NCBI GenBank assembly: GCA_005788935.1
Contig: SYAK01000266.1
Span: 1-13,959, forward strand
Length of the DNA: 13,959 nt
DNA from: Pseudomonadota bacterium
GTDB lineage: Bacteria > Myxococcota > UBA9042 > PHBI01
Direction of reading: 5' to 3'
This document shows, in pieces, positions 2,096 to 13,959 of the stretch. A model generated the notes under the pieces. It was not told the origin of the DNA. It was given only the letters and a program-made list of their open reading frames with translations, and searched no databases. The translations under genes were made by a program, and so were the position numbers. The first letter of the stretch is position 1. Every line of letters begins with the position of its first letter.

Positions 2096-3862
2096 ATGGC
2101 CGAACTCCGCCCACGTCGCACCGTCTCCGTCGCGCCGACGCGCACTGTCAGCGCGGCCCGCAAGCCTGCGTCACGCCCGCTGAGGGCCTGGGTCCTCGAC
2201 GTGCCGTTCGCGATGCGCGGGGCGGCTCGCGAGCATGGGGCGCGCTGGGACGCGGAACATCGGGTGTGGCTCTATCGCGGCGTGACCCTGCCGCACGGAC
2301 TTGCGCCGATGGCGGCCCAGCCGTGGTCGCTCGAGGCGCGGGCCGAGCGGGCCTTGAACAAGGGGCTCATCCCGAACTCCGAGGCCGCTCCGCGGACGAT
2401 GACGCCGCGCCCGCACCAGCAAGCCGGCGTCGCAGCCATCCACGCCGCCCACGCAGCCGAGCTCGGGGGCTTCCTGCTAGCCGACGACGTGGGGCTCGGC
2501 AAGACGCTGACGGCCTGGGCGGCGATCGACGGGCTGCCGGACATGGCCACCGTCCTCATCGTCTGCCCGCTCGCGGTCGTGGCCCACTGGCGCCGCACCA
2601 TCGCAGCGTGGGGGGACGGCGAGCGGGACATCGTCATCCTGAACTACGAGCGCCTCGGCAAGCTCTTCGAGGTCGAAGACGACGCGCGCGGCAAGGTGAA
2701 ATCGGCGCGGGGGCTTGCGCGCCGGGGTCACGCCGAGCAATTTGATACCATCATTTGGGACGAGAGCCATCGCCTGAAGAACCCGACCGCGGCCCGCTCG
2801 AAGTTCGCGGCCAAGCTCGGGGCCGAGGCGCGGTTCGTGCTCTGGCTGTCGGCGACGGCGGGGCAGAACCCGCTCGAGCTCTCGTATCTGGCGCCGCTGC
2901 TCGCGCGCAGCACCGGGACGAGCGCCCGCTCGCTGAAGGACTTCGAGGCCTGGTGCGCCAGGATCGACCTCGGGGTCACCCGCGGGGCCTTCGGGCGCTG
3001 GGACTGGCGCGGCGACGCGGCCGACTGCGAGCGCGTGCGCGGGCTGCTCTTCGACCCGGGCAAGACGGGGGCCGCTGCGGGGCTCAGGCGCCGTCCCGAG
3101 GACATCGTGGGCTGGCCCGAGCTCAACCGCATCCTGACACCGCTCGCCCTCGACGCCGAGGGGAAGGCGCTCTACCAGACGGCGTGGGAGGCCTTCCGCG
3201 ACGCCCTCGCACAGGCCCGCGAAGGCGCTCCCGCGGACCGCGACCCCGCGCCGCGTACGGGGCGACGCAGCGCGAGCGAGCTGAAAGCCTTGCGCGACGC
3301 CGCCTCGAACCGGCTCACCGCCACGCTGCGGCTGCGCCAGAAGGCGTCTCTGCTGCGTGTTCCGGGTACGATCGACCTCGCGCTCGAGCTGCTCGAGGCG
3401 AGGCTGCGGGTCGCCATCTCGGTGGGGTTCATTGAGACCCTCGAGGCCATCGCGGCGGCGCTCGCGGCCGAGGGGGTCCGCGCCGAAGTCATCGCGGGTG
3501 CGAGCACCGCCACCGAGCGGGAGGCCGCCCGCCTGCGCTTTCAGCGTGGCGAGACCCCCGTCGTGCTGTTCACGGTCGAGGAGGGCATCTCGCTCCATCA
3601 GGGCGAACACGAGGACGTCCCTCGGGCGCTCGTCATCCACGACCTGCGCTGGTCGGCCATCCAGATGGCGCAGATCGAGGGCCGCTGTCATCGCGACGGG
3701 CGCTTCGCACAGGCCTACTGGACGTTCGCCGAAGACACACTCGAGGAGCAAATCGCAGGCATTGTGTGCCGACGCATCCAGGCGATGAAGGGCATGATCG
3801 GCGACGACACCGAGACCTTGAAGGAAATCGAGCGGCTCCTCGAGGCGAACGCGCTCGGATGA
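2096..3862 (+). CDS. SNF2-family DEAD/DEAH helicase with DUF5710-like N-terminus
   Basis: The 588-residue protein is an ATP-dependent DNA translocase/helicase of superfamily 2. Residues about 33-62 (V-P-F-A-M-R-G-A-A-R-E-H-G-A-R-W-D) match the DUF5710 fold often attached to DNA-processing proteins of mobile elements. The helicase core follows: Q-motif-like R-P-H-Q-Q (105-109), Walker A D-D-V-G-L-G-K-T (130-137), Walker B D-E-S-H (222-225), motif III S-A-T (252-254), a motif V-like V-E-E-G-I-S-L-H (494-501) and motif VI Q-x-x-Q-I-E-G-R-C-H-R (523-533). All key residues are present, so it should be active. The compact core and the A-T-A-G-Q-N-P-L-E-L-S-Y-L segment resemble helicases of tailed phages and integrative elements. 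No other phage gene is nearby, and the decayed repeat region sits just upstream, so it may be a relic or a solitary acquisition. The ATG at 2096 is preceded by no clear ribosome binding site. Confidence 0.88.
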   Translation: MAELRPRRTVSVAPTRTVSAARKPASRPLRAWVLDVPFAMRGAAREHGARWDAEHRVWLYRGVTLPHGLAPMAAQPWSLEARAERALNKGLIPNSEAAPRTMTPRPHQQAGVAAIHAAHAAELGGFLLADDVGLGKTLTAWAAIDGLPDMATVLIVCPLAVVAHWRRTIAAWGDGERDIVILNYERLGKLFEVEDDARGKVKSARGLARRGHAEQFDTIIWDESHRLKNPTAARSKFAAKLGAEARFVLWLSATAGQNPLELSYLAPLLARSTGTSARSLKDFEAWCARIDLGVTRGAFGRWDWRGDAADCERVRGLLFDPGKTGAAAGLRRRPEDIVGWPELNRILTPLALDAEGKALYQTAWEAFRDALAQAREGAPADRDPAPRTGRRSASELKALRDAASNRLTATLRLRQKASLLRVPGTIDLALELLEARLRVAISVGFIETLEAIAAALAAEGVRAEVIAGASTATEREAARLRFQRGETPVVLFTVEEGISLHQGEHEDVPRALVIHDLRWSAIQMAQIEGRCHRDGRFAQAYWTFAEDTLEEQIAGIVCRRIQAMKGMIGDDTETLKEIERLLEANALG

Positions 3863-4053: not shown

Positions 4054-5055
4054 ATGGCCACAGCGAAGCCCACGACGCAGCCGAGACAGCCCGAGGCAGC
4101 CGCCTTCCCGGTCGCGCTGCTGACCGGCAGCGATCACAGCCCGGGGCGCGAGACCGCGCTCGCGCTCGCGCGCGCCGGATTCAAGGTCTGGGCCGTCGTA
4201 CCGTCGGCCGAGGACGCCGCCATCCTCGCGCGGGAGGCCCGCGGCCTCGCGCTGATGCCGGTCGTGCTCGACGTGACGGACGGGCGCGACCGGGCCCGCG
4301 TAGTCGCCGACATCGTGGACATCGACGGCCGCCTCGACGCCCTCATCCTCGACGTCGCTACGACCCTCGAAGGTCCCCTCGCGCTGCTGTCCGACAATGA
4401 GGTCTTCCAGCTCTTCGATCGCAACGTCCTCGCGACCTTCGGCTTCATCCGGGACACCCTTCCGCTGCTCAAGGCCGCACCGCGCGGGCGGATCATCGCC
4501 TTCTCGCCGCTCTCGGGCGACCTCGCCATCCCGGGGATGGGGGCCGCCTCGGCCGCCCGCTTCGCCCTCGACGCGCTCTTCTCGGCCTGGCGCACCGAGC
4601 TCGGCGCTGACGGGATCGCGCTGACGCTGCTCGAGACCGGCCCTGTCCGCTCCGAGCCCGCCCGCCCCGCCAGCCTGTCGGCCCGCGCCGCCGCCGAGGC
4701 CCGCGAGGATGGTCCGTGGCGGCCGTTCATCGCCCGCTTTCTGGCGCTGCGGCTCGCGATGATGACCCGCGCCCTGCCTCCCTCCGACGTCGCCGAGGCC
4801 CTCGTGACGCTCGCGGCGACCGAGTCCCCGCCACAGCAGCTGTCGCTCGGCGGCCCGAGCCGCACCCGGCGCGTCCTGCAGGCGCTCTTGCCAGCCCGCG
4901 CCCTGCAGCGCCTGGTCGGGGTCGTCTTCACGCCAAGCGTTCCGACGCAGCCCGCCGCCGCGCCGACCCCCGACACCGGCCGCCCGACACCGACCCCGCG
5001 ACCGAGCCCTCGCTGGGGGGGCCGCCCACGGGCCGTGCCGCCCGCCAAACTCTGA
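4054..5055 (+). CDS. SDR-fold protein lacking the catalytic triad (probable pseudoenzyme)
   Basis: The 333-residue protein has the fold signature of classical short-chain dehydrogenases. It shows an N-terminal Rossmann strand with V-A-L-L-T-G-S (27-33), an L-D-V-T-D segment, an N retained in F-D-R-N-V-L (about 125-130), G-R-I-I-A-F-S-P-L-S-G (145-155), and G-A-A-S-A-A-R-F-A-L (163-172) before a typical helix and E-T-G-P-V. The active site is gone. The Ser position is Pro152, the Tyr is Ala165 and the Lys is Arg169; the middle Gly of T-G-x3-G-x-G is Ser and N-N-A-G is absent. Tyr to Ala and Lys to Arg (AAG to CGC) need at least two base changes each, so this is not a reading error. The C-terminus (about 290-333) is Pro/Arg-rich and probably disordered; a run of seven G falls in it near 5015. 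It is first of four close-packed genes. A structural or regulatory role is more likely than oxidoreduction. Confidence 0.8.
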   Translation: MATAKPTTQPRQPEAAAFPVALLTGSDHSPGRETALALARAGFKVWAVVPSAEDAAILAREARGLALMPVVLDVTDGRDRARVVADIVDIDGRLDALILDVATTLEGPLALLSDNEVFQLFDRNVLATFGFIRDTLPLLKAAPRGRIIAFSPLSGDLAIPGMGAASAARFALDALFSAWRTELGADGIALTLLETGPVRSEPARPASLSARAAAEAREDGPWRPFIARFLALRLAMMTRALPPSDVAEALVTLAATESPPQQLSLGGPSRTRRVLQALLPARALQRLVGVVFTPSVPTQPAAAPTPDTGRPTPTPRPSPRWGGRPRAVPPAKL

Positions 5056-5089: not shown

Positions 5090-5698
5090 ATGGCCAAGAC
5101 GCCCTCGAACATGGTTCCCCTCGGCACGCCCGCGCCCGACTTCTCCCTGCCCGACGCACGCGCCTTCGCGACCGGGGCCACGCTGTCGGATTTGCCGCGC
5201 GTGTCCCGCTCGGACCTCGACGGCGCCCCGGCACTTCTGGTAATGTTCGTCTGCAATCACTGCCCGTTCGTGGTCCATATCCGCACGCCGCTCGCGCGCC
5301 TCGCGCGGGCCTGGCAAGATCGAGGCGTCGCTGTCGTGGCCATCGCGAGCAACGACTTCGCCCGATATCCCCAAGACGGCCCCGAGGCCATGGCGGCCCT
5401 CGCGCGCGAACTCGACCTGTCCTTCCCCTACCTCGTCGACGCCGACCAGCGCGTCGCGACGGCCTACCAGGCCGCCTGCACGCCTGACTTCTTCCTGTAC
5501 GACAGCGCCCGCCGCCTCGTGTACCGGGGGCAGCTCGACAGCGCGCGCCCCGGCAACGACGTGCCCGTGACTGGCGAGGACCTTGGTCGCGCCATCGAGG
5601 CGGTCCTGACGGGGGCCCCGCCGCTCGCCGAGCAGACCCCAAGCCTTGGCTGCAACATCAAGTGGCGCCCCGGCCACGAGCCGCCCTGGTTCGGCTGA
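5090..5698 (+). CDS. Thioredoxin-fold protein, peroxiredoxin-like-1 family
   Basis: The 202-residue protein belongs to the AhpC/TSA-like thioredoxin family with a PRX_like1 domain, and the whole chain matches it. P-A-P-D-F-S-L-P (14-21) begins the domain, V-C-N-H-C-P-F-V (54-61) holds the redox pair C55/C58, and A-I-A-S-N-D (84-89) and A-A-C-T-P-D-F-F (128-135) are family hallmarks. The chain ends in the typical Y-R-G-Q-L-D-S-A-R-P-G-N, P-V-T-G-E-D-L and G-C-N-I-K-W-R-P-G. It is full length, has no signal peptide and is presumably cytoplasmic. Its physiological substrate is not established for the family; thiol-disulfide exchange or peroxide reduction is likely. A clear ribosome binding site, GGAG (5078-5081), lies 8 bases before the ATG. 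It follows the SDR-fold gene after 34 bases, suggesting a shared transcript. Confidence 0.9.
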   Translation: MAKTPSNMVPLGTPAPDFSLPDARAFATGATLSDLPRVSRSDLDGAPALLVMFVCNHCPFVVHIRTPLARLARAWQDRGVAVVAIASNDFARYPQDGPEAMAALARELDLSFPYLVDADQRVATAYQAACTPDFFLYDSARRLVYRGQLDSARPGNDVPVTGEDLGRAIEAVLTGAPPLAEQTPSLGCNIKWRPGHEPPWFG

Positions 5699-5727
5699 GC
5701 CACGGTCACCCGCGCGAGTCCGTCACG

Positions 5728-6777
5728 ATGCCCCCAGCCAACGCCACCCAGCCGCTCGTCACTTGCAGCCTCGACGGCGTCATCGGCGGGGCCGCTGCCT
5801 ATCGCCCCGTCGAGCCGTGGGAGCGGGGCTGGGGCTCGCCGCTCACGCCCGTCCTGTGCTCGAACGTGCGGTGCCTCGCGTGTGCCACCCCGGTTCGCGC
5901 AGTGCTCGGACACGCCCTGCCCGAAGGCCTGTGGCGGTCCATCGACTTCGCGGGACGCCTCAAGCCCATCCCCGAGCTGTTGCGACTCGTCTCGGCGCCC
6001 GCGGTCCGCACGTGGATGTGCGCCTGCCGGACCGTCTCGCTCGACGCGGCGCACCCCCTCGCCCATGGCGTCCTCGTGTCCCCCGAGGCCGGACGCCTGC
6101 GTCTGCCCTGGCGGTGCGCTGGGCACCTCCCGCCACCCACCAACGCCACGCTTGACGGGCATCTGTTACCGACAGACCCGACGGCTTGGTTCGCACACGT
6201 CGACGCCCTCGTCCTCGGCGAGACACCCGCCCCGACGCGCCGGCGCTCGGTGCATGACGTGTCCCACCCGGCCTTCCAGCTCGCGCATCGCCTCGTCCAT
6301 CTGTCCGACGGACGCCTGCAGCGGGCGCTCGGCGAGCGAGTGGCGCGGACCTGGCTGACAGCGCTCGAGACCCGACCGAGACAGGTCGCGGTCGACCTTT
6401 ACCGCCTGCTGCCGCGCTTCTTCGGAAGCGAGGGCCTCGCGGTGGCGCTCGCCGAGGACGCAGAGGCCTTCGACACGCGCGTGACGGCGCCCGACGGGGA
6501 GCCGCTCGGCCGTCGCCTGCGTCTCGCGTGTGCAACCCAGGTCCAGCGCCTCCCGGACCGGGCGATGCTCGACGCGATGCGGCAGGACCTGTCGCGAACA
6601 CCCAAGTCTCGCTTGCATGGCCTCGATTACGGGGACTCCGCCCTCGTCGACGCGCTCGCCCGGCTCGACCCCGACTGGCTGCGCGCCGCGGGTCCAGAGC
6701 TCGCGCACGCGCGCCGCGACCTCCCGACGGAGGTCCGCGCGAACCTCGCGCGCCTGCACCCCTCTCCGTCCGCCTGA
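5728..6777 (+). CDS. Unrecognised protein with Cys/His clusters (349 aa)
   Basis: I do not recognise this family. I chose the ATG at 5728, 29 bases after the preceding stop; an in-frame ATG at 5662 would overlap that gene heavily. The N-terminal third carries possible metal-binding groups: C-x4-C-x2-C at C44, C49 and C52, then C98-A-C100 and C130-x2-H133, together enough ligands for one or two zinc sites. The C-terminal two thirds (about 165-349) look alpha-helical, rich in Leu, Ala and Arg, without Cys clusters. There are no signal peptide or transmembrane segments. It sits between the peroxiredoxin-like gene and the B3/B4 gene with a 9-base gap to the latter, so it is probably co-transcribed. 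GC-rich codon use matches the neighbours, supporting a real gene. Confidence 0.75.
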   Translation: MPPANATQPLVTCSLDGVIGGAAAYRPVEPWERGWGSPLTPVLCSNVRCLACATPVRAVLGHALPEGLWRSIDFAGRLKPIPELLRLVSAPAVRTWMCACRTVSLDAAHPLAHGVLVSPEAGRLRLPWRCAGHLPPPTNATLDGHLLPTDPTAWFAHVDALVLGETPAPTRRRSVHDVSHPAFQLAHRLVHLSDGRLQRALGERVARTWLTALETRPRQVAVDLYRLLPRFFGSEGLAVALAEDAEAFDTRVTAPDGEPLGRRLRLACATQVQRLPDRAMLDAMRQDLSRTPKSRLHGLDYGDSALVDALARLDPDWLRAAGPELAHARRDLPTEVRANLARLHPSPSA

Positions 6778-6786
6778 GACCCCGAC

Positions 6787-7431
6787 ATGCACCTCCTTGC
6801 GCACAATCCGCACCTGAGACTTCACGCGTTCCTGACCGACTGGGGCGCGCCGCTCGCGGAGCTTCCCTCGTCCGAGGCCCTGACAGCCGCGATGCGTGCG
6901 GACGCCAACGCCCCGCTGCAGGCGCACGATGCGCTGCGGGCCGCGGTGCGGGACCTCCTGCGGTTCCATGGCTTCAAGCCGACCGGGCGCAGCAAGCCCT
7001 CCTCCGAGTACCTCCTGCGCGCCGCCTCCGAGGCGCCCGATGGCCGTCTTCCAGTCATCAACGCCGCGGTCGATCTCGGCAACGCCGTGTCGCTCCACAG
7101 CGGGTTGCCGCTCAGCGTCATCGACCTCGACCGGGCCCGGGCACCGCTCTCCGTCGCCCCGGGAGCCGCAGGTGCCGCCTACGTCTTCAACCGCTCGGGC
7201 CAGACGATCGACGTGACGGCGCTGCTGTCCCTCCAGGACGCCGACGGCCCCTGCGCGAACCCGGTCAAGGACGCGCAGCGGACGAAGACGGATGGCACGA
7301 CGCGACGCACCCTGACGGTCCTCTGGGGCGTCTCGGGCTTCTCGGAGCACACCGACGCTGCGGCGGCCTGGTGGCGGGTGCTCGCCGCGACACACCCGAC
7401 CGCGTCGACGCACGTGTTCGACGCGCTGTGA
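6787..7431 (+). CDS. B3/B4 domain protein (tRNA-editing-like)
   Basis: The 214-residue protein resembles stand-alone B3/B4 domains, the fold that forms the editing module of the phenylalanyl-tRNA synthetase beta subunit. The signature runs G-F-K-P-T-G-R-S-K-P-S-S-E-Y-L (62-76), then L-P-V-I-N-A-A-V-D-L-G-N-A-V-S-L (88-103) and S-G-L-P-L-S-V-I-D-L (105-114). A later segment, K-T-D-G-T-T-R-R-T-L-T-V (167-178), fits the second half of the domain. The first 55 residues are a family-variable helical lead. Free-standing members may act on mischarged tRNAs or bind small molecules, but their substrates are generally undefined. It is the last of four genes with gaps of 34, 29 and 9 bases. Identification of the fold is fairly secure; the role is inferred. 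Confidence 0.8.
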   Translation: MHLLAHNPHLRLHAFLTDWGAPLAELPSSEALTAAMRADANAPLQAHDALRAAVRDLLRFHGFKPTGRSKPSSEYLLRAASEAPDGRLPVINAAVDLGNAVSLHSGLPLSVIDLDRARAPLSVAPGAAGAAYVFNRSGQTIDVTALLSLQDADGPCANPVKDAQRTKTDGTTRRTLTVLWGVSGFSEHTDAAAAWWRVLAATHPTASTHVFDAL

Positions 7432-7507
7432 TGGACGTCCCGCCAAGGGCCGGCCGGTCGCATTTCGGGTTTGTAACCTGCAGACCTTTGAGGCAAGCAT
7501 CCCGACC

Positions 7508-8761
7508 ATGAACCCAACCCCGCTCGGCCGCAGCGCGCGTGCGCGCCTGGTATCCCTTGCTGGCGGCGTCCTCCTGAACGCGACGCCGGGCGACGCCGGA
7601 GCCGAGGAGCAACCTCCAGCCGAGTCGGCGATCCCCAGCGTCGAGGCCTCCCCGGCCGAGCCACCCGAGGCGCCTCCCGAGGAGGACACACGTCCCGTCG
7701 ACCCGTGGGCCTCCCCCGATGTGGACGCCTGGCTCCGCGAACAGGGGGTCGAGGCCGAGAGCACGCGCGAGACGGTCCGCTTCAACGTCGGCGGCTTCGC
7801 GGACGTGGACCTCCACGGCTCGAGCTCGGGCGGCCACGGCCACAACGAGTTCCACATCGGACAGCTGGTCTTTCACGGCCTCGCAGACCTCACCCGCGGA
7901 TTCGGGGCCTTCATGGAGGTCTCCGTCAACAGCGAGCCGAAGTGGGAGACGCGGGTCGAGCGCCTGCTGCTGTTCTGGGAGCTGAACGACAACCTCAAGC
8001 TGTCGATGGGCCGCCATCACATCCCGGTCACCTGGTGGAACTCGACCTTCCACCACGGGCTCTGGCTGCAGACGACCGCGCGCCGCCCGGTCATCGTCGG
8101 CTACAACGACGCCTTCGTGCCGAACCACGCCGTCGGCCTCAACGCCGAAGGCAAGGTGCCCGGCCTCGAGTCCCTCGGGTTCCGCTACCAGCTCGGCCTC
8201 AACGGGGGCGGTGATGACCACCTCCACAGCGGCACCGCCACGACGCACCACGCCGAGCTGCGCGCGGCCTGGACCGCCGGGCTGTTTCTCGAGCCGCCAG
8301 CCCTTCCGCGGCTTCGCCTCGGTGCGGTGGTCTTCGCGGACCCGCTTCGGCACCGCGAGGGGCGCCTCGTCGACGAGTTGACGGTCGGCGCGCACGTGGC
8401 CTACACCTCCGAACAACCCGAACTCATCGCGGAGGTCGTCCACGTCCGTCATGATGTGGGCGCCCTCGAGGATGGCACGGGGGCTGGCGCGTTCTCGCAC
8501 TGGGCCTGGTACGTGCAGGCGGCCTGGCGCCTCCCGGGTGCGGCCTCGGCGTTCAAGCCTTACGCGCGCTACGAGGCCTTGACGCTCGACCCGACGGGTG
8601 ACCCGACCCTCGCGTCCGCCTCGGGCACGCGGCTCTTCCTGGCTGGCACGCGCATCGACGCGACCCCGTGGCTCGCCCTGAAGGTCGAAGGTGCGTGGCG
8701 CCATCGCGACGGGACGGACGACACCCTCGAGGCCCTCGTGCAAGCGAGCGCCGCATGGTGA
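7508..8761 (+). CDS. Outer-membrane beta-barrel porin-like protein
   Basis: The 417-residue protein starts with a basic, hydrophobic signal-like sequence (1-32, probable cleavage after G-D-A-G-A). A Pro/Glu-rich linker follows (33-70), then alternating hydrophobic/polar strands from about 88 to the end. It finishes in A-W, an aromatic C-terminus typical of BAM substrates. Conserved-looking parts are N-V-G-G-F-A-D-V-D-L-H, V-E-R-L-L-L-F-W, and G-R-H-H-I-P-V-T-W-W-N-S-T-F-H-H-G-L-W. These resemble a porin-like family that I recall beside short PstS-like proteins and histidine kinases. Histidines cluster at residues 103, 110, 112, 116 and 123, which might bind metal. It overlaps the next gene by 7 bases, so it heads the sensory cluster. 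Upstream, a possible -10 TAACCT (7474-7479) and GAGG (7490-7493) fit a short leader. The transported substrate is unknown. Confidence 0.78.
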   Translation: MNPTPLGRSARARLVSLAGGVLLNATPGDAGAEEQPPAESAIPSVEASPAEPPEAPPEEDTRPVDPWASPDVDAWLREQGVEAESTRETVRFNVGGFADVDLHGSSSGGHGHNEFHIGQLVFHGLADLTRGFGAFMEVSVNSEPKWETRVERLLLFWELNDNLKLSMGRHHIPVTWWNSTFHHGLWLQTTARRPVIVGYNDAFVPNHAVGLNAEGKVPGLESLGFRYQLGLNGGGDDHLHSGTATTHHAELRAAWTAGLFLEPPALPRLRLGAVVFADPLRHREGRLVDELTVGAHVAYTSEQPELIAEVVHVRHDVGALEDGTGAGAFSHWAWYVQAAWRLPGAASAFKPYARYEALTLDPTGDPTLASASGTRLFLAGTRIDATPWLALKVEGAWRHRDGTDDTLEALVQASAAW

Positions 8762-9258
8762 CTCGGACCGCACGATGCATGGCAGTCGTCGCGCTGCACC
8801 TCGCACTGGTCGCCACGCTGTGCTGTGGGCGCGAGTCTGCGGCCCGGGCAGCCGAGCCAAAGCCGGCGATCGTCGTCGTGCACGCTGGCGTGCCAGTCCG
8901 CAACCTGAGCCTCACCGAGCTGCGCGAGCTGGTGCTCGGCCAGCGGCGCTTCTGGGCGGGAGGCGCCCGCGTCGAGCTCATCGTCGAGGCTGGCGCGGGA
9001 CCGGGCCGCCGCGGGTTCGTCGAGACGCTGTCGCACATGACGGATCTCCAGTTCCAGCAGTACTGGGTCGGGCAGATCTTCAGCCAGCGCGCGACCCGCG
9101 CCCCGCGGGCCGCTCCCGACCGGCGCCTGGCGCTCGCGCTGGTCTCGGCCATCCCTGGCGCCTTGACAGTCGTCGAGGACGGCCCGCTGCCAACCCGGAC
9201 GCACGCCGTGACAGTCGACGGCCTCGCGCCCGGTGACCCGCGCTACCCGCTCCGATGA
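8755..9258 (+). CDS. Short PstS-like periplasmic substrate-binding protein
   Basis: The 167-residue product begins at the ATG at 8755, inside the 3' end of the porin gene (ATGGTGA). Residues 9-33 form a signal peptide with a hydrophobic core and a plausible cut at A-R-A-A. The mature part matches the short PstS-like (PBP-like-2) type: V-V-H-A-G-V-P-V, L-S-L-T-E-L-R-E-L-V-L-G-Q-R-R-F-W (51-67), G-A-R-V-E-L, then L-Q-F-Q-Q-Y-W-V-G (98-106) and I-P-G-A-L-T-V-V. It is about half the length of a transport PstS, and no pstC, pstA or pstB lies nearby, so a sensing role is more likely than uptake. It overlaps the following kinase by 4 bases (ATGA). The ligand could be phosphate or another oxyanion; the sequence does not decide. 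Confidence 0.78.
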   Translation: MVTRTARCMAVVALHLALVATLCCGRESAARAAEPKPAIVVVHAGVPVRNLSLTELRELVLGQRRFWAGGARVELIVEAGAGPGRRGFVETLSHMTDLQFQQYWVGQIFSQRATRAPRAAPDRRLALALVSAIPGALTVVEDGPLPTRTHAVTVDGLAPGDPRYPLR

Positions 9259-10991
9259 GTCTGCTCGGGGCGCCGATGGCCTCGCGCGGACACGGGACGC
9301 TGCGTTTCAGGCTGCTCGCGAGCCTCGCGACGTTTGTCGCGCTCGCCGTGGTCGGCGTCATGCTGACGCTCTCGGGGCGGACCGAGCGGGACGCCCTGCT
9401 CGAGGGGTTTGCGCAGACGTGGCTGCGCGGACAGGCCGAGGCGCGGCTCGAGCGATGCGTGGCCGACCTGCACCGACAGCTGACGCTGTTGTCCCAGGGC
9501 TTCACGGGGGCGGCTGGCGAGGCGCTCGCGCCTGAGGTCCGACAGGGGTTCGAGGTGGGGCTCACGGCCTGCGCGGGTGAAGTCGCCCTGCTGCGCGACG
9601 AGCCAGCGGCCACCGCGCTGCTGCCCGACATCGAGGCGCTGCTCGAAGACCTGCGCTTCGTCATCACGCGCCTCGGTGTCGACCATGTGGAGGCCATCTC
9701 GCGTCAGGCGCTCGAGGTCGACCCCGTCGCAGAGGTCCTTGTGGCCACACGGTTCCCAACGTTGCGGGCCGACCTGTCCCGCGAGCTCGAACGCCTGCGG
9801 GAGGGGATCGGCGCGGTCGGGGCGCGGGCCGATCAGACCCTCCTCATCGCGCTCATCGGGCCCATCGTCGCCTTCGCGCTCATCGCTGGCCTCCTCCTGC
9901 GTCGGGTGCTCGGCAGCCTCCGCGCACTCGGGGACGCCATGGCCGCAATCGGATCCGGCAAGCTCCACCACCGCGTCGAGGTGGGCGGACGGGACGAGTT
10001 CACGGCGCTCGGCGAACGCATCAACGCGATGGCTGCCCGCCTGACGGCCAGTCAGCAGGAGCTTTCGACCTACGCGGCCGAGCTCGAGCGGTCGCTCGCC
10101 TCGCTGAGAGATGCGCAGGAGACCGCGGTGGAGCAGCAGAAGCTCGCGGCGCTCGGCGAGCTGGTGGCGGGCGTGTCGCACGAGGTGAACACCCCCCTCG
10201 GCGTCGCCGTGACGTGCGCATCCCTCGTCGAGGAACACCTCCGGACGCTGCGGGAGGCCTCCGACGGCGGGACGGCGACCCGCGGGCTGTTGCGGCGCCT
10301 GACAACCGACCTCGAAGAAATCCTGCGCCCGCTGCAGGACAACCTCGCACGGGCCGCCCGCCTCGTCAGCTCGTTCAAGCAGGTGGCGGTGGACCGGGGC
10401 TCGGTGACGACCCGGACGGCGCCGCTCGATCAGTGGGCGAACGCGGTCCGCCAAAGCCTCGCACCTGCCCTGCGGCAGCAACGGGTCACGGTGGCGCTCG
10501 ACGTCGCCCCAGTCTCGCTGCGGGTGGCGGCGGGCGAGCTCGAGCAGATCCTGTCGAACCTCATCCTCAACGCCTGCATGCACGCCTTTCCGGAGGGGGC
10601 GGACGCGGCGCCAGACCCGGCCTCGCGGGAGGTGCGGGTCGCGGCCGCGGTGACAGCGGGCGCGGACGGTCGGGAGGCCCTGACCCTGACGGTCGCCGAC
10701 AGCGGGGTCGGGATGCCGCCAGAGGTCGCGGCGCGCGTCTTCGAGCCCTTCTTCACGACGCGGCGAGGACGGGGTGGTTCTGGGCTCGGGATGCACATCG
10801 TGCATCAGCTCGTTCACGAGCGTTTCGGAGGGCGCGTCGAGCTGGCTACGGCCCGCGGCGAAGGGACCCGATGGACGCTGACCCTGCCGATGCCCACCGA
10901 GGCGCTCGCACGCGCCGACGCAGACTGGCGGAGCAATGAATCGGCCGTGGACACGGGTTCTGCGATACCCACGCCCCCCGAGATGCAGTAA
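9255..10991 (+). CDS. Membrane sensor histidine kinase (HAMP-HisKA-HATPase)
   Basis: The 578-residue kinase has a first membrane helix at about 17-39, a mostly helical periplasmic domain at 40-193 with Cys68 and Cys106, and a second membrane helix at about 194-216. A HAMP region (216-268) and coiled coil (268-295) follow. The H-box V-S-H-E-V-N-T-P-L-G has the phospho-acceptor H309. The ATPase part has N-box N-L-I-L-N-A (435-440), G1 D-S-G-V-G-M, F-box F-E-P-F-F-T-T and G2 G-S-G-L-G-M, so it should be active. The start overlaps the PstS-like stop (ATGA), implying coupled expression. The natural hypothesis is that the PstS-like protein contacts its periplasmic domain. It has no receiver domain, and the nearest one is in the kinase at 11522. 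The last 30 or so residues after the ATPase are a disordered tail. Confidence 0.92.
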   Translation: MSLLGAPMASRGHGTLRFRLLASLATFVALAVVGVMLTLSGRTERDALLEGFAQTWLRGQAEARLERCVADLHRQLTLLSQGFTGAAGEALAPEVRQGFEVGLTACAGEVALLRDEPAATALLPDIEALLEDLRFVITRLGVDHVEAISRQALEVDPVAEVLVATRFPTLRADLSRELERLREGIGAVGARADQTLLIALIGPIVAFALIAGLLLRRVLGSLRALGDAMAAIGSGKLHHRVEVGGRDEFTALGERINAMAARLTASQQELSTYAAELERSLASLRDAQETAVEQQKLAALGELVAGVSHEVNTPLGVAVTCASLVEEHLRTLREASDGGTATRGLLRRLTTDLEEILRPLQDNLARAARLVSSFKQVAVDRGSVTTRTAPLDQWANAVRQSLAPALRQQRVTVALDVAPVSLRVAAGELEQILSNLILNACMHAFPEGADAAPDPASREVRVAAAVTAGADGREALTLTVADSGVGMPPEVAARVFEPFFTTRRGRGGSGLGMHIVHQLVHERFGGRVELATARGEGTRWTLTLPMPTEALARADADWRSNESAVDTGSAIPTPPEMQ

Positions 10992-10994
10992 CCT
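10989..10994 (+). promoter_or_regulatory. Putative leaderless -10 element for the BLUF gene
   Basis: TAACCT fits TANNNT and lies exactly 6 bases before the ATG at 11001; its first three bases are the stop codon of the preceding kinase. No Shine-Dalgarno sequence precedes the ATG. No good -35 is seen at 16-18 bases upstream, so this is weaker than the site at 4019. If real, the BLUF gene can be transcribed separately from the porin-kinase genes. Confidence 0.35.
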
Positions 10995-11000
10995 CGCGCC

Positions 11001-11525
11001 ATGCAACCGCCGCGCGAGCCATCCGTCCCAGCCGCCCCGACCGACTCGGCTGCATCGGCCGAGTGGAACGCAGCGACGCCTGGCGATGGGCCCGCCGGCG
11101 AGGAGCTGCTGCGCCTGTGGGGTTATACGTCATCCTATACGGGCACGGACGTGACGCGAGATCTGCAGGATATCGGGGAGGTCTCGCTCCGCAACAATCG
11201 CCGGGACCGCGTGACGGGAGCCCTCCTCTTCGATGCCGGGCGCTTCGTCCAGGTCCTCGAAGGCCCCGCCCCGAGCGTCGGCCGCATCATCGACCGCATC
11301 GGACAGGACCCGCGCTGCGCCGAGGTGGTCGAGCTGTTCGATGTCGTCGTGACACATCGCTCGATGGATGACTGGGACCTGTGGGTCGGGCGGACCGTCG
11401 GCGACGACGGGCTTGCCGCTGACGAGCTCTCCCGGTTTCGTGACATGTACCAGCGCGGCTTCCGCCTCGACGCCATCGGGTTCGTGACGCTGCTGCGTTC
11501 CCTCATCCGGAGCCTCGAGCGTTGA
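11001..11525 (+). CDS. BLUF-domain blue-light photoreceptor
   Basis: The 174-residue protein is a stand-alone BLUF (flavin-binding blue-light sensor). After a Pro/Ala-rich lead (1-35), the domain spans about 36-130. Key residues are visible: Tyr42 in G-Y-T-S-S, Asn66 in R-N-N-R-R-D-R-V-T-G, Gln84 in F-V-Q-V-L-E-G and Trp125 in D-D-W-D-L. The Met that normally sits two residues after this Trp (Met106 of AppA) is Leu127. The C-terminal part (about 140-174) is helical, as in short BLUF proteins that signal through partner contacts. No output domain is fused. Its stop codon overlaps the start of the next kinase gene, so that kinase is the obvious partner. Presumably it is cytoplasmic with FAD or FMN. 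Confidence 0.92.
   Translation: MQPPREPSVPAAPTDSAASAEWNAATPGDGPAGEELLRLWGYTSSYTGTDVTRDLQDIGEVSLRNNRRDRVTGALLFDAGRFVQVLEGPAPSVGRIIDRIGQDPRCAEVVELFDVVVTHRSMDDWDLWVGRTVGDDGLAADELSRFRDMYQRGFRLDAIGFVTLLRSLIRSLER
11509..11524 (+). promoter_or_regulatory. Ribosome binding site and TTG start of the REC-kinase gene
   Basis: GGAG (11509-11512) lies 9 bases before TTG (11522-11524), which overlaps the BLUF stop as TTGA. The first ATG downstream (11544) is out of frame. The next in-frame alternative, a GTG in the first REC strand, would delete the domain's start. The TTG is therefore preferred. Confidence 0.6.
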
Positions 11526-13144
11526 CGTCTCTCCCCCCGCCGCATGACGCCTCGCTCGACGACGAGCTGCTGCCAGAAGACGAGCACGAGGCCGTCGCCC
11601 CGGCCGCGGCGCTGTCACACACGCGCTTCGGACCGCGACCAGCCTCGCCCGTCGGCAAGGCCTGGAAGGTGCTGATCGTCGATGACGACCGCGACGTGCG
11701 CCTCGTCAGCGAGCTCGCGCTGCGGGGGCTCGCGGTGGACGACCGGCCAGTGTCCCTGCTGTTCGCCGCCAACGCGGCCGAGGCGCGGTCGCTGCTGCAC
11801 GCCCACGACGACATCGCGGTGGCCCTCGTCGACGTCGTGATGGAGAGCCAGCAGGCCGGCCTCGAGCTGGTGCGCTGGATCCGGGGCGACCTCGGCAACT
11901 GGTGGGTGCGGCTCGTGGTGCGGACCGGCGAGCCGGGAAGCGCGCCGGAAGCGCGTGTCATGGCCGATCACGAGCTCCACGACTACCTCGCCAAGTCCGA
12001 GACGACCGCGCGGCGACTCGTCAGCTGTGTCACCGGTGCGCTGCGGGCGTGGCGCGACCAGCACACCATCCGCCTTCAGCGGAGCGGTCTGCAGACCGTG
12101 CTGCAGGCGGTCGACGGGCTGTTCGCGAACCGCGAGCTCGACGCGCTGCTCGGAGCCGTCCTGCGCGAGACAGCGACGCTGCTGGCCCCCGCGGCCGATG
12201 GCGCGTGGCTCATCGAGGCCCTCGGCGTGACGTCCCCCGACAGCCACCGACTCGGACCCGAGGTGGTCTGCCACGCGACGCTCGACGGCACGCGCCCGCC
12301 CGAAGCCATCCTCGGAGCGGACCTGCCCGAGCCGGGGCGCATCGTGGTCCGGCCCGGATTCGCGGTCTACCGCTTCGACATCGACGGCGACAGCCGCCTC
12401 ATCATCGCCCTGCGCCGCGCGGACATCAGCCCGTGGGAGTGCCAGCTCGTGGAGCTCTACGGGCACGCGGTCGCCCTGTCGCTGCGCCACAGGACCGCGT
12501 GGGATGCGGCGATATCGTCGATTTCGCGGGCGCTCGAGGAGCGCGAGGTGATGCTGCGCGAAATCCACCACCGCGTGAAGAACAACCTCCAGATCACCGC
12601 CAGCCTGCTCTCGTTGCAGGCCGACGGTTGCCTGTCGCCCGAGGCGCGCGGCGCGCTTGCCGACAGCGTCTCGCGCGTGCGCTCGATGGCGCTTGTTCAC
12701 CAGCAGCTCTACGCGGGCCGCGACCTCGCCCGCATCACGCTCGACGAGTTCTGTCGCACGCTCGCGACCCTGCTGCGCGCGAGCCTCGCCCCCGACGCCA
12801 TCCTCGAGCTCGACCTTGAGCCCGCCTCGGTCAGCATCGATCAAGGCATCCCTTGCGGCCTCATCCTGAACGAGCTGCTCACGAACGCGTTGAAGCACGG
12901 CAAATCCAAGGACGGGCGCGTCCGCATCCACCTGACGGTCACCGAGGACGCGCACCACGTCTCGCTCACCGTGCGCGACGAAGGACCCGGGTTGCCCGGC
13001 ACCATCGACGAAATCTCCATGAACTCTCTGGGCTTGCAGATGGTCGAGTCCCTGGCGCGCCAGCTTCAGGCCAGGCTCACCTGCGACAATGCGCCTGGCG
13101 CCCGCTTCGTCCTCCGCATTCCGCGCGGGCCAGCCCCTTCCTGA
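11522..13144 (+). CDS. Response regulator-kinase: REC-DUF3369-HisKA_2-HATPase
   Basis: The 540-residue cytoplasmic protein begins with an acidic lead (1-45). A receiver domain follows (about 48-165): acidic triplet D54-D56, phospho-acceptor Asp104 in A-L-V-D-V-V-M, T135 and K158 in Y-L-A-K-S-E-T. Residues about 166-325 match DUF3369, the GAF-like domain that follows REC in such regulators. A HisKA_2 H-box follows, L-R-E-I-H-H-R-V-K-N-N-L-Q (345-357; H350 is the likely phospho-site). The ATPase part has N-E-L-L-T-N-A (450-456), D-E-G-P-G-L-P and S-L-G-L-Q. Everything needed for both phospho-acceptance and kinase activity is present. The gene starts with TTG in a 4-base overlap with the BLUF stop. 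It could receive phosphate from the membrane kinase at 9255 and be tuned by BLUF. Its own target regulator is not in the window. Confidence 0.9.
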   Translation: MTSLPPPHDASLDDELLPEDEHEAVAPAAALSHTRFGPRPASPVGKAWKVLIVDDDRDVRLVSELALRGLAVDDRPVSLLFAANAAEARSLLHAHDDIAVALVDVVMESQQAGLELVRWIRGDLGNWWVRLVVRTGEPGSAPEARVMADHELHDYLAKSETTARRLVSCVTGALRAWRDQHTIRLQRSGLQTVLQAVDGLFANRELDALLGAVLRETATLLAPAADGAWLIEALGVTSPDSHRLGPEVVCHATLDGTRPPEAILGADLPEPGRIVVRPGFAVYRFDIDGDSRLIIALRRADISPWECQLVELYGHAVALSLRHRTAWDAAISSISRALEEREVMLREIHHRVKNNLQITASLLSLQADGCLSPEARGALADSVSRVRSMALVHQQLYAGRDLARITLDEFCRTLATLLRASLAPDAILELDLEPASVSIDQGIPCGLILNELLTNALKHGKSKDGRVRIHLTVTEDAHHVSLTVRDEGPGLPGTIDEISMNSLGLQMVESLARQLQARLTCDNAPGARFVLRIPRGPAPS

Positions 13145-13150
13145 GTCCCC

Positions 13151-13798
13151 ATGCAAGACGCTCCGACGCCCTACCAGCGGCCCATCCGTGCTCAGTACGT
13201 CGACCCGTACGAGGTCATCTGGCTCGCCACCGCCCGCCGTCTCGGCCTCACCATCGGGCGTGACCCGGCGATCTTTTCCCTGACCCTCGGAGACGGGAAG
13301 CTGTGGCTCGGGCCGCGCCACGACCTCGACCCGGACGACACGCTGGCCCAGATGCTCTTCCACGAGCTCTGCCATTGGTTCACCAACGGTATCGAGACCT
13401 TCCATCAGGCCGACTGGGGCTTCGACCTCGGCGACGATGACGACCCGCGCGAGTTCGGCTGCCTGCGGCTTCAGGCGTGGCTCGCGGACCGCTACGACCT
13501 GCGCGCGATGTTCAGCCCGACGGGCAAGTTCCGCGCCTACTTCGACCGCATCCCGCTCGACCCGCTCGCGCCGCTCGACGACGGCCCCTCCGAGGCGGAG
13601 ATCATCGCCATCGCCCGCCGCGCCATCGCGACGAGCCGCCTCGATCCGTACGCAGGCCTCGTGGACTCCGCCCTCGAGGCGACAGCCCGCCTCAAGGCGA
13701 CCCTCGCGCCGTTTTCCTCGGATTTCGCGCCCGAGCTCGACGCCTCGCGCCTCCCCTGTCTCTGGTTCGTCCCGACCCCGACCTTCGAGGCGCCGTAA
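13151..13798 (+). CDS. Putative zincin-like metalloprotein (HELCH motif)
   Basis: The 215-residue protein carries H-E-L-C-H (71-75) in a helix, matching the HExxH zinc motif of metallopeptidases. R-E-F-G-C-L-R-L-Q-A (100-109) follows about 26 residues later, where Glu101 could be a third ligand as in gluzincins. The region around Y-V-D-P-Y-E-V-I-W-L-A and L-G-L-T-I-G-R-D at the N-terminus appears well structured. There is no signal peptide, so it is presumably cytoplasmic. I recall similar uncharacterised proteins in myxobacteria but cannot name a family. Its ATG is 6 bases after the stop of the REC-kinase, so it belongs to the same transcript. A peptidase role is inferred only from the motif. 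Confidence 0.72.
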   Translation: MQDAPTPYQRPIRAQYVDPYEVIWLATARRLGLTIGRDPAIFSLTLGDGKLWLGPRHDLDPDDTLAQMLFHELCHWFTNGIETFHQADWGFDLGDDDDPREFGCLRLQAWLADRYDLRAMFSPTGKFRAYFDRIPLDPLAPLDDGPSEAEIIAIARRAIATSRLDPYAGLVDSALEATARLKATLAPFSSDFAPELDASRLPCLWFVPTPTFEAP

Positions 13799-13837
13799 GC
13801 GCGCCTCCATGACTGCACCATCCCCGGAGTCAGCACC

Positions 13838-13959
13838 ATGCGCTACCTGAAACGCCTCGCAGCACCCACCCTCGCGCTCGCCTCCGTGTCGTGCGGGGAT
13901 GGCCTTGGTGGGTTCCTCATCTCGAACGCGAAGGAGCTCGAGCTCGGCGCACAGCTCGA
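13838..13959 (+). CDS. N-terminus of a lipoprotein, possibly M48 peptidase (partial)
   Basis: Only the first 40 codons are in the window. GGAG (13826-13829) lies 8 bases before the ATG. Residues 1-18 are a signal sequence (M-R-Y-L-K-R then a hydrophobic core) ending in S-V-S-C-G-D, a loose lipobox. Soon after comes I-S-N-A-K-E-L-E-L-G-A-Q-L, which resembles the segment just after the signal peptide in M48-family (BepA/YggG-like) peptidases. The catalytic HExxH would lie beyond the window, so the family call is tentative. The frame runs off the end intact. Confidence 0.55.
   Translation, partial: MRYLKRLAAPTLALASVSCGDGLGGFLISNAKELELGAQL

Follow-up and report, generated by a model that had tools for sequence, protein, structure and literature searches.

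The contig SYAK01000266.1 (assembly GCA_005788935.1, labelled a Pseudomonadota bacterium and placed in the Myxococcota by GTDB; 13,959 nucleotides, referred to at its full length as the window) carries a string of same-strand genes in which a short BLUF blue-light receptor is followed directly by a histidine kinase that begins with a receiver (REC) and a DUF3369 domain. In related genomes, the lineage of this BLUF protein tracks the REC-DUF3369 module, and not the output domain attached to that module or the sensor kinase encoded nearby. The string comprises six open reading frames (ORFs) on the + strand, which a preliminary description of the sequence had placed with overlaps of 7, 4 and 4 bases and gaps of 9 and 6 bases; all of these positions and spacings were confirmed. 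In order, they encode an outer-membrane porin-like protein (417 amino acids; 7508..8761), a single-lobe PstS-like protein (167 amino acids; 8755..9258), a membrane histidine kinase with a HAMP domain and no receiver (578 amino acids; 9255..10991), the BLUF protein (174 amino acids; 11001..11525), the REC-DUF3369-HisKA_2-HATPase_c protein (540 amino acids; 11522..13144) and a HELCH-motif protein considered below. His309 of the membrane kinase, and Asp104 and His350 of the second kinase, were found at the positions that had been claimed for them.

The domain assignments of the two central proteins were examined by Pfam and by alignment. The BLUF protein scored 66.8 bits against PF04940 (curated cut-off, 25), and Tyr42, Asn66 and Gln84, which we take to be the flavin-site triad and which align with a solved BLUF cyclase, are invariant in all 11 BLUF rows, the window included. 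In the second kinase, REC (residues 50-162) scored 28.9 bits, just under its cut-off of 30.2, and was also matched by REC folds. DUF3369 scored 43.3 bits over the first 64 of its 168 positions, HisKA_2 occupies residues 347-420 (87.2 bits) and HATPase_c residues 447-535. Asp104 and His350 do not vary in any of the 19 rows, the window among them; nor do two residues upstream of REC (D13 and L17), which back the TTG start assigned to this gene. Among the 120 proteins listed from 2119 matches, eighteen (P0031-P0048) have DUF3369 together with HisKA_2 and match the query over 90% of its length or more. When the alignment was used as a profile against contigs, nearly all of the best 80 loci listed matched the kinase part only; the sole near-full match among them was L017 in a member of the Nitrospirota (residues 38-536, 36% identity). 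The L017 stretch from 8094 to 13492 encodes three proteins in succession: a kinase, then a REC protein whose last part is a kinase of HisKA_2 type, then a second REC-kinase.

Co-occurrence was tested in genomes other than that of the window, using 377 genomes sampled from the phylum of genome G001 (Myxococcota by record). BLUF was matched in 50 genomes at 59 places and DUF3369 in 72 genomes at E ≤ 0.001, with 34 genomes exceeding the cut-off at 37 places. Four of the 59 BLUF places adjoin a DUF3369 gene (G084, G138, G199 and G001). The preliminary description had grouped the five families as one system, and G084 does carry the porin, the PstS-like gene, the HAMP kinase, the REC-DUF3369 protein and BLUF in one string, so the objection that these never co-occur in relatives fails. 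The REC-DUF3369 protein of G084, however, ends in a class III cyclase, not a HisKA_2 kinase. The order in the other three genomes is BLUF, REC-DUF3369-HD_5 and a kinase of PAS-PAS type, with domains assigned by Pfam in G138 and G001 and judged from ORFs of equal length in G199; both the HD and GYP motifs are present in the G138 and G001 proteins. No porin or PstS-like match was found in the stretches fetched from these three genomes, nor any PstS-like match in the genomes themselves. In the window the BLUF gene shares 4 bases (TTGA) with the REC-DUF3369 gene; the overlap is also 4 bases in loci L119, L138 and L139 if their ATG starts are used, and the two genes lie 22 bases apart in L140. The BLUF-linked loci thus differ in their sensor kinase, which is of HAMP or PAS-PAS type, in whether they have the envelope genes, and in the output (kinase, cyclase or HD-GYP). 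As only BLUF and REC-DUF3369 stay together, BLUF is most simply read as acting on REC-DUF3369.

The BLUF proteins that adjoin REC-DUF3369 form a lineage of their own. A search with the window BLUF gave 13 matches, six of them close (P0151-P0156), and in a tree of 68 BLUF rows the window, these six and the four linked genomes formed a clade (support 99/96) with no outsider among the 57 other rows. An 85-row tree kept the clade at 99/96 and admitted one outsider, L213, from the class of G006 (Gammaproteobacteria); the weak places L209-L212 were in neither tree, and the long-branch rows L207, L204, P0163 and L188 were in the 68-row tree only. At the remaining 55 BLUF places in this phylum, no REC-DUF3369 was found within the fetched stretch (about 3 kb each side unless a contig ended). 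A kinase piece lies about 2 kb from BLUF in L189 and L199, and a weak HisKA_2-like match (E 8e-3) adjoins it in L161. Membership of the BLUF clade was associated with DUF3369 adjacency (Fisher p 3e-6, counting as outside the clade all 55 other phylum places and 19 other loci, including the unplaced L209-L212). That the adjacency is chance was rejected by this test and by an estimate of chance adjacency assuming 6.2-Mb genomes and a 6-kb neighbourhood.

A profile of the clade BLUFs (A3) was also searched in two classes, those of G006 (274 genomes) and G383 (Alphaproteobacteria; 240 genomes), and in two phyla, those of G384 (129 genomes) and G004 (126 genomes), the phyla together giving four places. 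The best match, in G423 (E 6e-42), was a solitary BLUF and the next was in G1053 (1.5e-24). None of the 20 loci examined from the two classes (L213-L232, the ten best each of 63 and 49 places) carries a REC-DUF3369 protein, and G558 has no DUF3369 match at E ≤ 0.001. Some protein matches also appear to lie together on metagenome contigs: P0003, P0032 and P0152 each give a longest contig of 23913 bases, and P0008 and P0155 each give one of 5733, from which it is probable that the genes of each set share a contig. The presumed 23913-base contig would further support the co-occurrence of the envelope genes and their kinase with BLUF and REC-DUF3369.

REC-DUF3369 is a general input module. In addition to the HisKA_2 kinase of the window, it is joined to a cyclase in L119, L142 and L147 (above the Pfam cut-off), in L122 (below it, 19.1 bits) and, by our own profile, in L143, L145 and L149; to HD-GYP in L138 and L140; to GGDEF in L144, which is cut by the contig end; and to GGDEF-EAL in L146 (also cut) and L148. 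The phospho-acceptor site of REC is conserved, with Asp in 42 of 43 REC-DUF3369 rows (one gap), Thr in 42 and Ser in one, and Lys in all 43. Of the 15 DUF3369 places at E ≤ 1e-20, 13 adjoin a histidine kinase gene, all but L147 and L150. A tree of the 43 rows placed the window and G084 in a clade of 22 rows (100/98); a different clade (99/97) held G001, G138, G199 and G060.

These observations suggest a two-input node, a model in which we place evenly balanced confidence. The HAMP kinase, accompanied at the envelope by the porin and the one-lobe PstS-like protein, would autophosphorylate at His309 and pass the phosphate to Asp104 of the REC-DUF3369 module. As a second input, the small BLUF protein would bind REC-DUF3369 in trans and tune it by blue light, by analogy with PixD-PixE. 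The HisKA_2/HATPase part would then be a histidine kinase under Rec control, with allosteric switching by way of the long helix before His350, as in LvrB, and its autophosphorylation at His350 would feed a response regulator encoded elsewhere. In relatives, the BLUF-REC-DUF3369 core comes with a class III cyclase or an HD-GYP phosphodiesterase in place of the kinase. More generally, the BLUF lineage may be a plug-in light subunit for REC-DUF3369 that puts any attached output under both blue-light and two-component control, as a coincidence detector; this wider proposal seems to us as apt to hold as to fail.

The preliminary description had instead proposed a linear, light-modulated phosphorelay from His309 through Asp104 to His350. 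All three residues are present and the latter two are invariant, and the first transfer is made plausible by the kinase genes adjoining 13 of the 15 DUF3369 places noted above. The second transfer found no support, as the part bearing His350 is swapped for a cyclase or HD-GYP in the BLUF-linked relatives. In those relatives, phosphorylation of Asp104 must take effect with no histidine beyond it; allostery is therefore the economical reading for the kinase too, and a chemical relay from Asp104 to His350 is unlikely. In addition, no HPt domain was found among the proteins scanned (Pfam, E ≤ 0.1; an unlinked HPt is possible), HisKA_2 has its own ATPase domain and so is able to autophosphorylate, and the published Rec-kinase example is allosteric (PMC13269768). 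Taken as a whole, the relay is considered very improbable.

It is also rather improbable that BLUF acts on the membrane kinase and not on REC-DUF3369. The window BLUF gene begins 9 bases after the HAMP kinase gene, and each of the five BLUF loci has a kinase gene; yet REC-DUF3369 adjoins BLUF in all five (which were chosen for a nearby DUF3369), the kinase gene adjoins BLUF only in the window, and the kinases differ in kind, HAMP in some and PAS-PAS in others. An unlikely but more serious alternative is that BLUF is co-transcribed and functionally separate, light and envelope sensing sharing only an operon. This would fit the 33 of 37 above-cut-off DUF3369 places that have no adjoining BLUF (although some contigs end close by, e.g., L141) and the one clade member that stands alone, but it would leave unexplained why a single BLUF clade adjoins REC-DUF3369 repeatedly, mostly by 4-base overlaps and across three output types.

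Several observations weigh against the two-input node, and many of these concern the porin, PstS-like protein and HAMP kinase (the trio). The PstS-like search gave 30 matches from 7993 candidates scored, and its profile matched 47 of the 377 genomes, most strongly (E < 1e-30) at four places, in G084, G332, G335 and G224. The trio genes stand in a row in all four of these close relatives (L119-L122), and the REC protein beside them is visible on three contigs (L119, L121 and L122), the fourth ending too early. This neighbour is a REC-DUF3369-cyclase in L119, the only one of the three loci with BLUF. In L121 (6796-12244; G335) it is a REC-HisKA-HATPase-REC hybrid that lacks DUF3369, and in L122 (G224) a REC protein with no Pfam DUF3369 or recognised output. 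L122 encodes two REC proteins between 1479 and 10608, one beside the trio and the other a REC-DUF3369-cyclase with its own kinase gene. In two of these four genomes, G332 and G335, DUF3369 was not matched at E ≤ 0.001, and G335 and G224 are absent from the 50 genomes with a BLUF match. The trio is not tied to DUF3369, and its differing neighbours indicate that it is a unit with changing REC partners. No second PstS-like locus was found in the order (22 genomes, E ≤ 0.001) or the class (52 genomes, E ≤ 1e-18) of G084.

On the BLUF side, the BLUF-linked modules are not united in the REC-DUF3369 tree, which implies that BLUF was lost repeatedly or moved to, or joined, at least two lineages. The clade member L213 (8853-9296) is solitary, flanked by purK and an ABC_tran-type gene, and its genome (G423) gave no match to DUF3369 at E ≤ 0.001. 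For contigs of 5731, 11179 and 31133 bases, PstS-like and REC-kinase matches were listed and no BLUF match was, so that BLUF looks accessory, and no BLUF match was found in L017 or L031, where REC-DUF3369-type proteins lie next to kinases. The residue that presumably corresponds to Met106 of AppA is Leu127 in the window BLUF. The predicted model of the 540-residue kinase has a predicted template-modelling (TM) score of only 0.51. In a Foldseek search with this model, chains of LvrB (8vc9) ranked second to seventh with TM scores of 0.2-0.3 and root-mean-square deviations of 28-29, indicating that LvrB shares its domain order and not a superposable shape. Against a fixed five-family system stand G332 and G335, with no DUF3369 match, G335 and G224, with no BLUF match, and the lone clade member; confidence in the two-input model itself was lowered because the trio occurs without DUF3369 in two of four genomes and because LvrB superposes poorly.

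The labels of the envelope proteins need qualification. That of porin is weak for the window protein (Porin_O_P, PF07396, 13.5 bits against a cut-off of 20.9). It gains support from the equivalent in G084, which clears the cut-off at 22.2 bits; for the equivalent in G335, Pfam gave nothing at E ≤ 0.01. Neither Pfam nor NCBIfam has a model that matches the PstS-like protein. Of its residues, 34-167 can be aligned to some 120 positions in PstS chains 236-378 residues long, a span that we take to be one PstS lobe, so this 167-residue protein lacks the two-lobed architecture of PstS phosphate-binding proteins. It also lacks the GSGS-R loop, having aeaspeR where 4exl has AAGSGSR in the profile alignment; this loop presumably has a phosphate role in PstS. 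The periplasmic-ligand branch, in so far as it meant sensing by PstS, is weakened by a protein that amounts to roughly half of PstS and has a changed loop, and phosphate sensing by it is doubtful. A phosphate-sensing operon was rejected on the same grounds and because no ABC transporter part was found among the 11 window proteins scanned. The first kinase has HAMP and HATPase_c matches, with HisKA at 24.6 bits against a cut-off of 26.9.

Parts of this arrangement have counterparts in known systems. The dual-sensor kinase PPHK has a GAF domain, and the light domain of EL346 is a LOV domain. PPHK of Leptolyngbya (6oap, 6oaq and 6ob8) binds its bilin itself, and EL346 and Brucella LOV-HK have the blue-light domain in the same chain, whereas light sensing in the window would lie in a separate BLUF protein. 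PixE is a PatA-like (PATAN-REC) protein; the BLUF partner in the window is instead a REC-DUF3369 protein with an enzymatic output, in which Pfam (E ≤ 0.1) found only REC, DUF3369, HisKA_2, HWE_HK and HATPase families. The likeness to Synechocystis PixD-PixE is that of a short BLUF protein with a response-regulator-like partner in trans (PMC5899715). LvrB of the Leptospira LvrA-LvrB system resembles the window protein in that an upstream kinase activates a protein with an N-terminal REC before its kinase core (PMC13269768). In both proteins REC precedes the DHp and CA domains in one chain, but LvrB is Rec-DHp-CA, whereas in the window protein DUF3369 separates REC from the kinase, the core is of HisKA_2 type and there is a BLUF partner. 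In REC-DUF3369-HD-GYP proteins such as VCA0210, REC and DUF3369 precede an active HD-GYP phosphodiesterase (PMC4212101), a different output from that of the window, and the word BLUF is absent from that paper. DUF3369 is rarely named in the literature searched, and then in HD-GYP contexts in main texts that do not use the word BLUF. No description of this gene composition was found in that literature, which comprised titles, the starts of abstracts and partial listings, with subscription journals mostly outside it.

The HELCH-motif protein (215 amino acids; 13151..13798, + strand), at most a putative member of the unit, has no family match above cut-off in Pfam or NCBIfam, and its single-sequence model has no counterpart in the 42 loci examined; it is possibly a metallopeptidase. 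The same-strand run starts before 7508, with + strand ORFs at 4054-5055, 5090-5698, 5662-6777 and 6787-7431, the last of which is separated from the porin start by a gap of 76 bases. These genes encode a short-chain dehydrogenase, an AhpC/TSA-type protein, a 371-residue protein of no assigned kind and a B3/4-domain protein (28.5 bits, slightly under its Pfam cut-off). No sigma-70-like promoter was found in 7300-13959, where terminator-like matches were at background level, and no Rfam family or tRNA was found in the window. Elsewhere, the window contains a tandem repeat at its left edge (1-267; 145-base unit, 1.8 copies, 95% matches), a gene for a SNF2-family helicase-like protein with DUF5710 at its N-terminus (2096-3862) and a + strand ATG with an open frame at 13838-13959 that is cut by the window edge.

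The gene string and its BLUF-REC-DUF3369 core appear, from their sequences, to be a variant on known signalling parts, with a mechanism that we infer. The most valuable point is that a BLUF lineage stays with REC-DUF3369 while the outputs are exchanged. The DUF3369 domain has no assigned function; if BLUF binds REC-DUF3369, the domain would gain a role in partner docking and signal integration. If this is true, a gate combining light and phosphorylation would be testable with a few soluble proteins, the natural kinase, cyclase and HD-GYP versions would be ready-made optogenetic parts, and the family would offer a clear instance in which output domains are exchanged while the sensory core is conserved.

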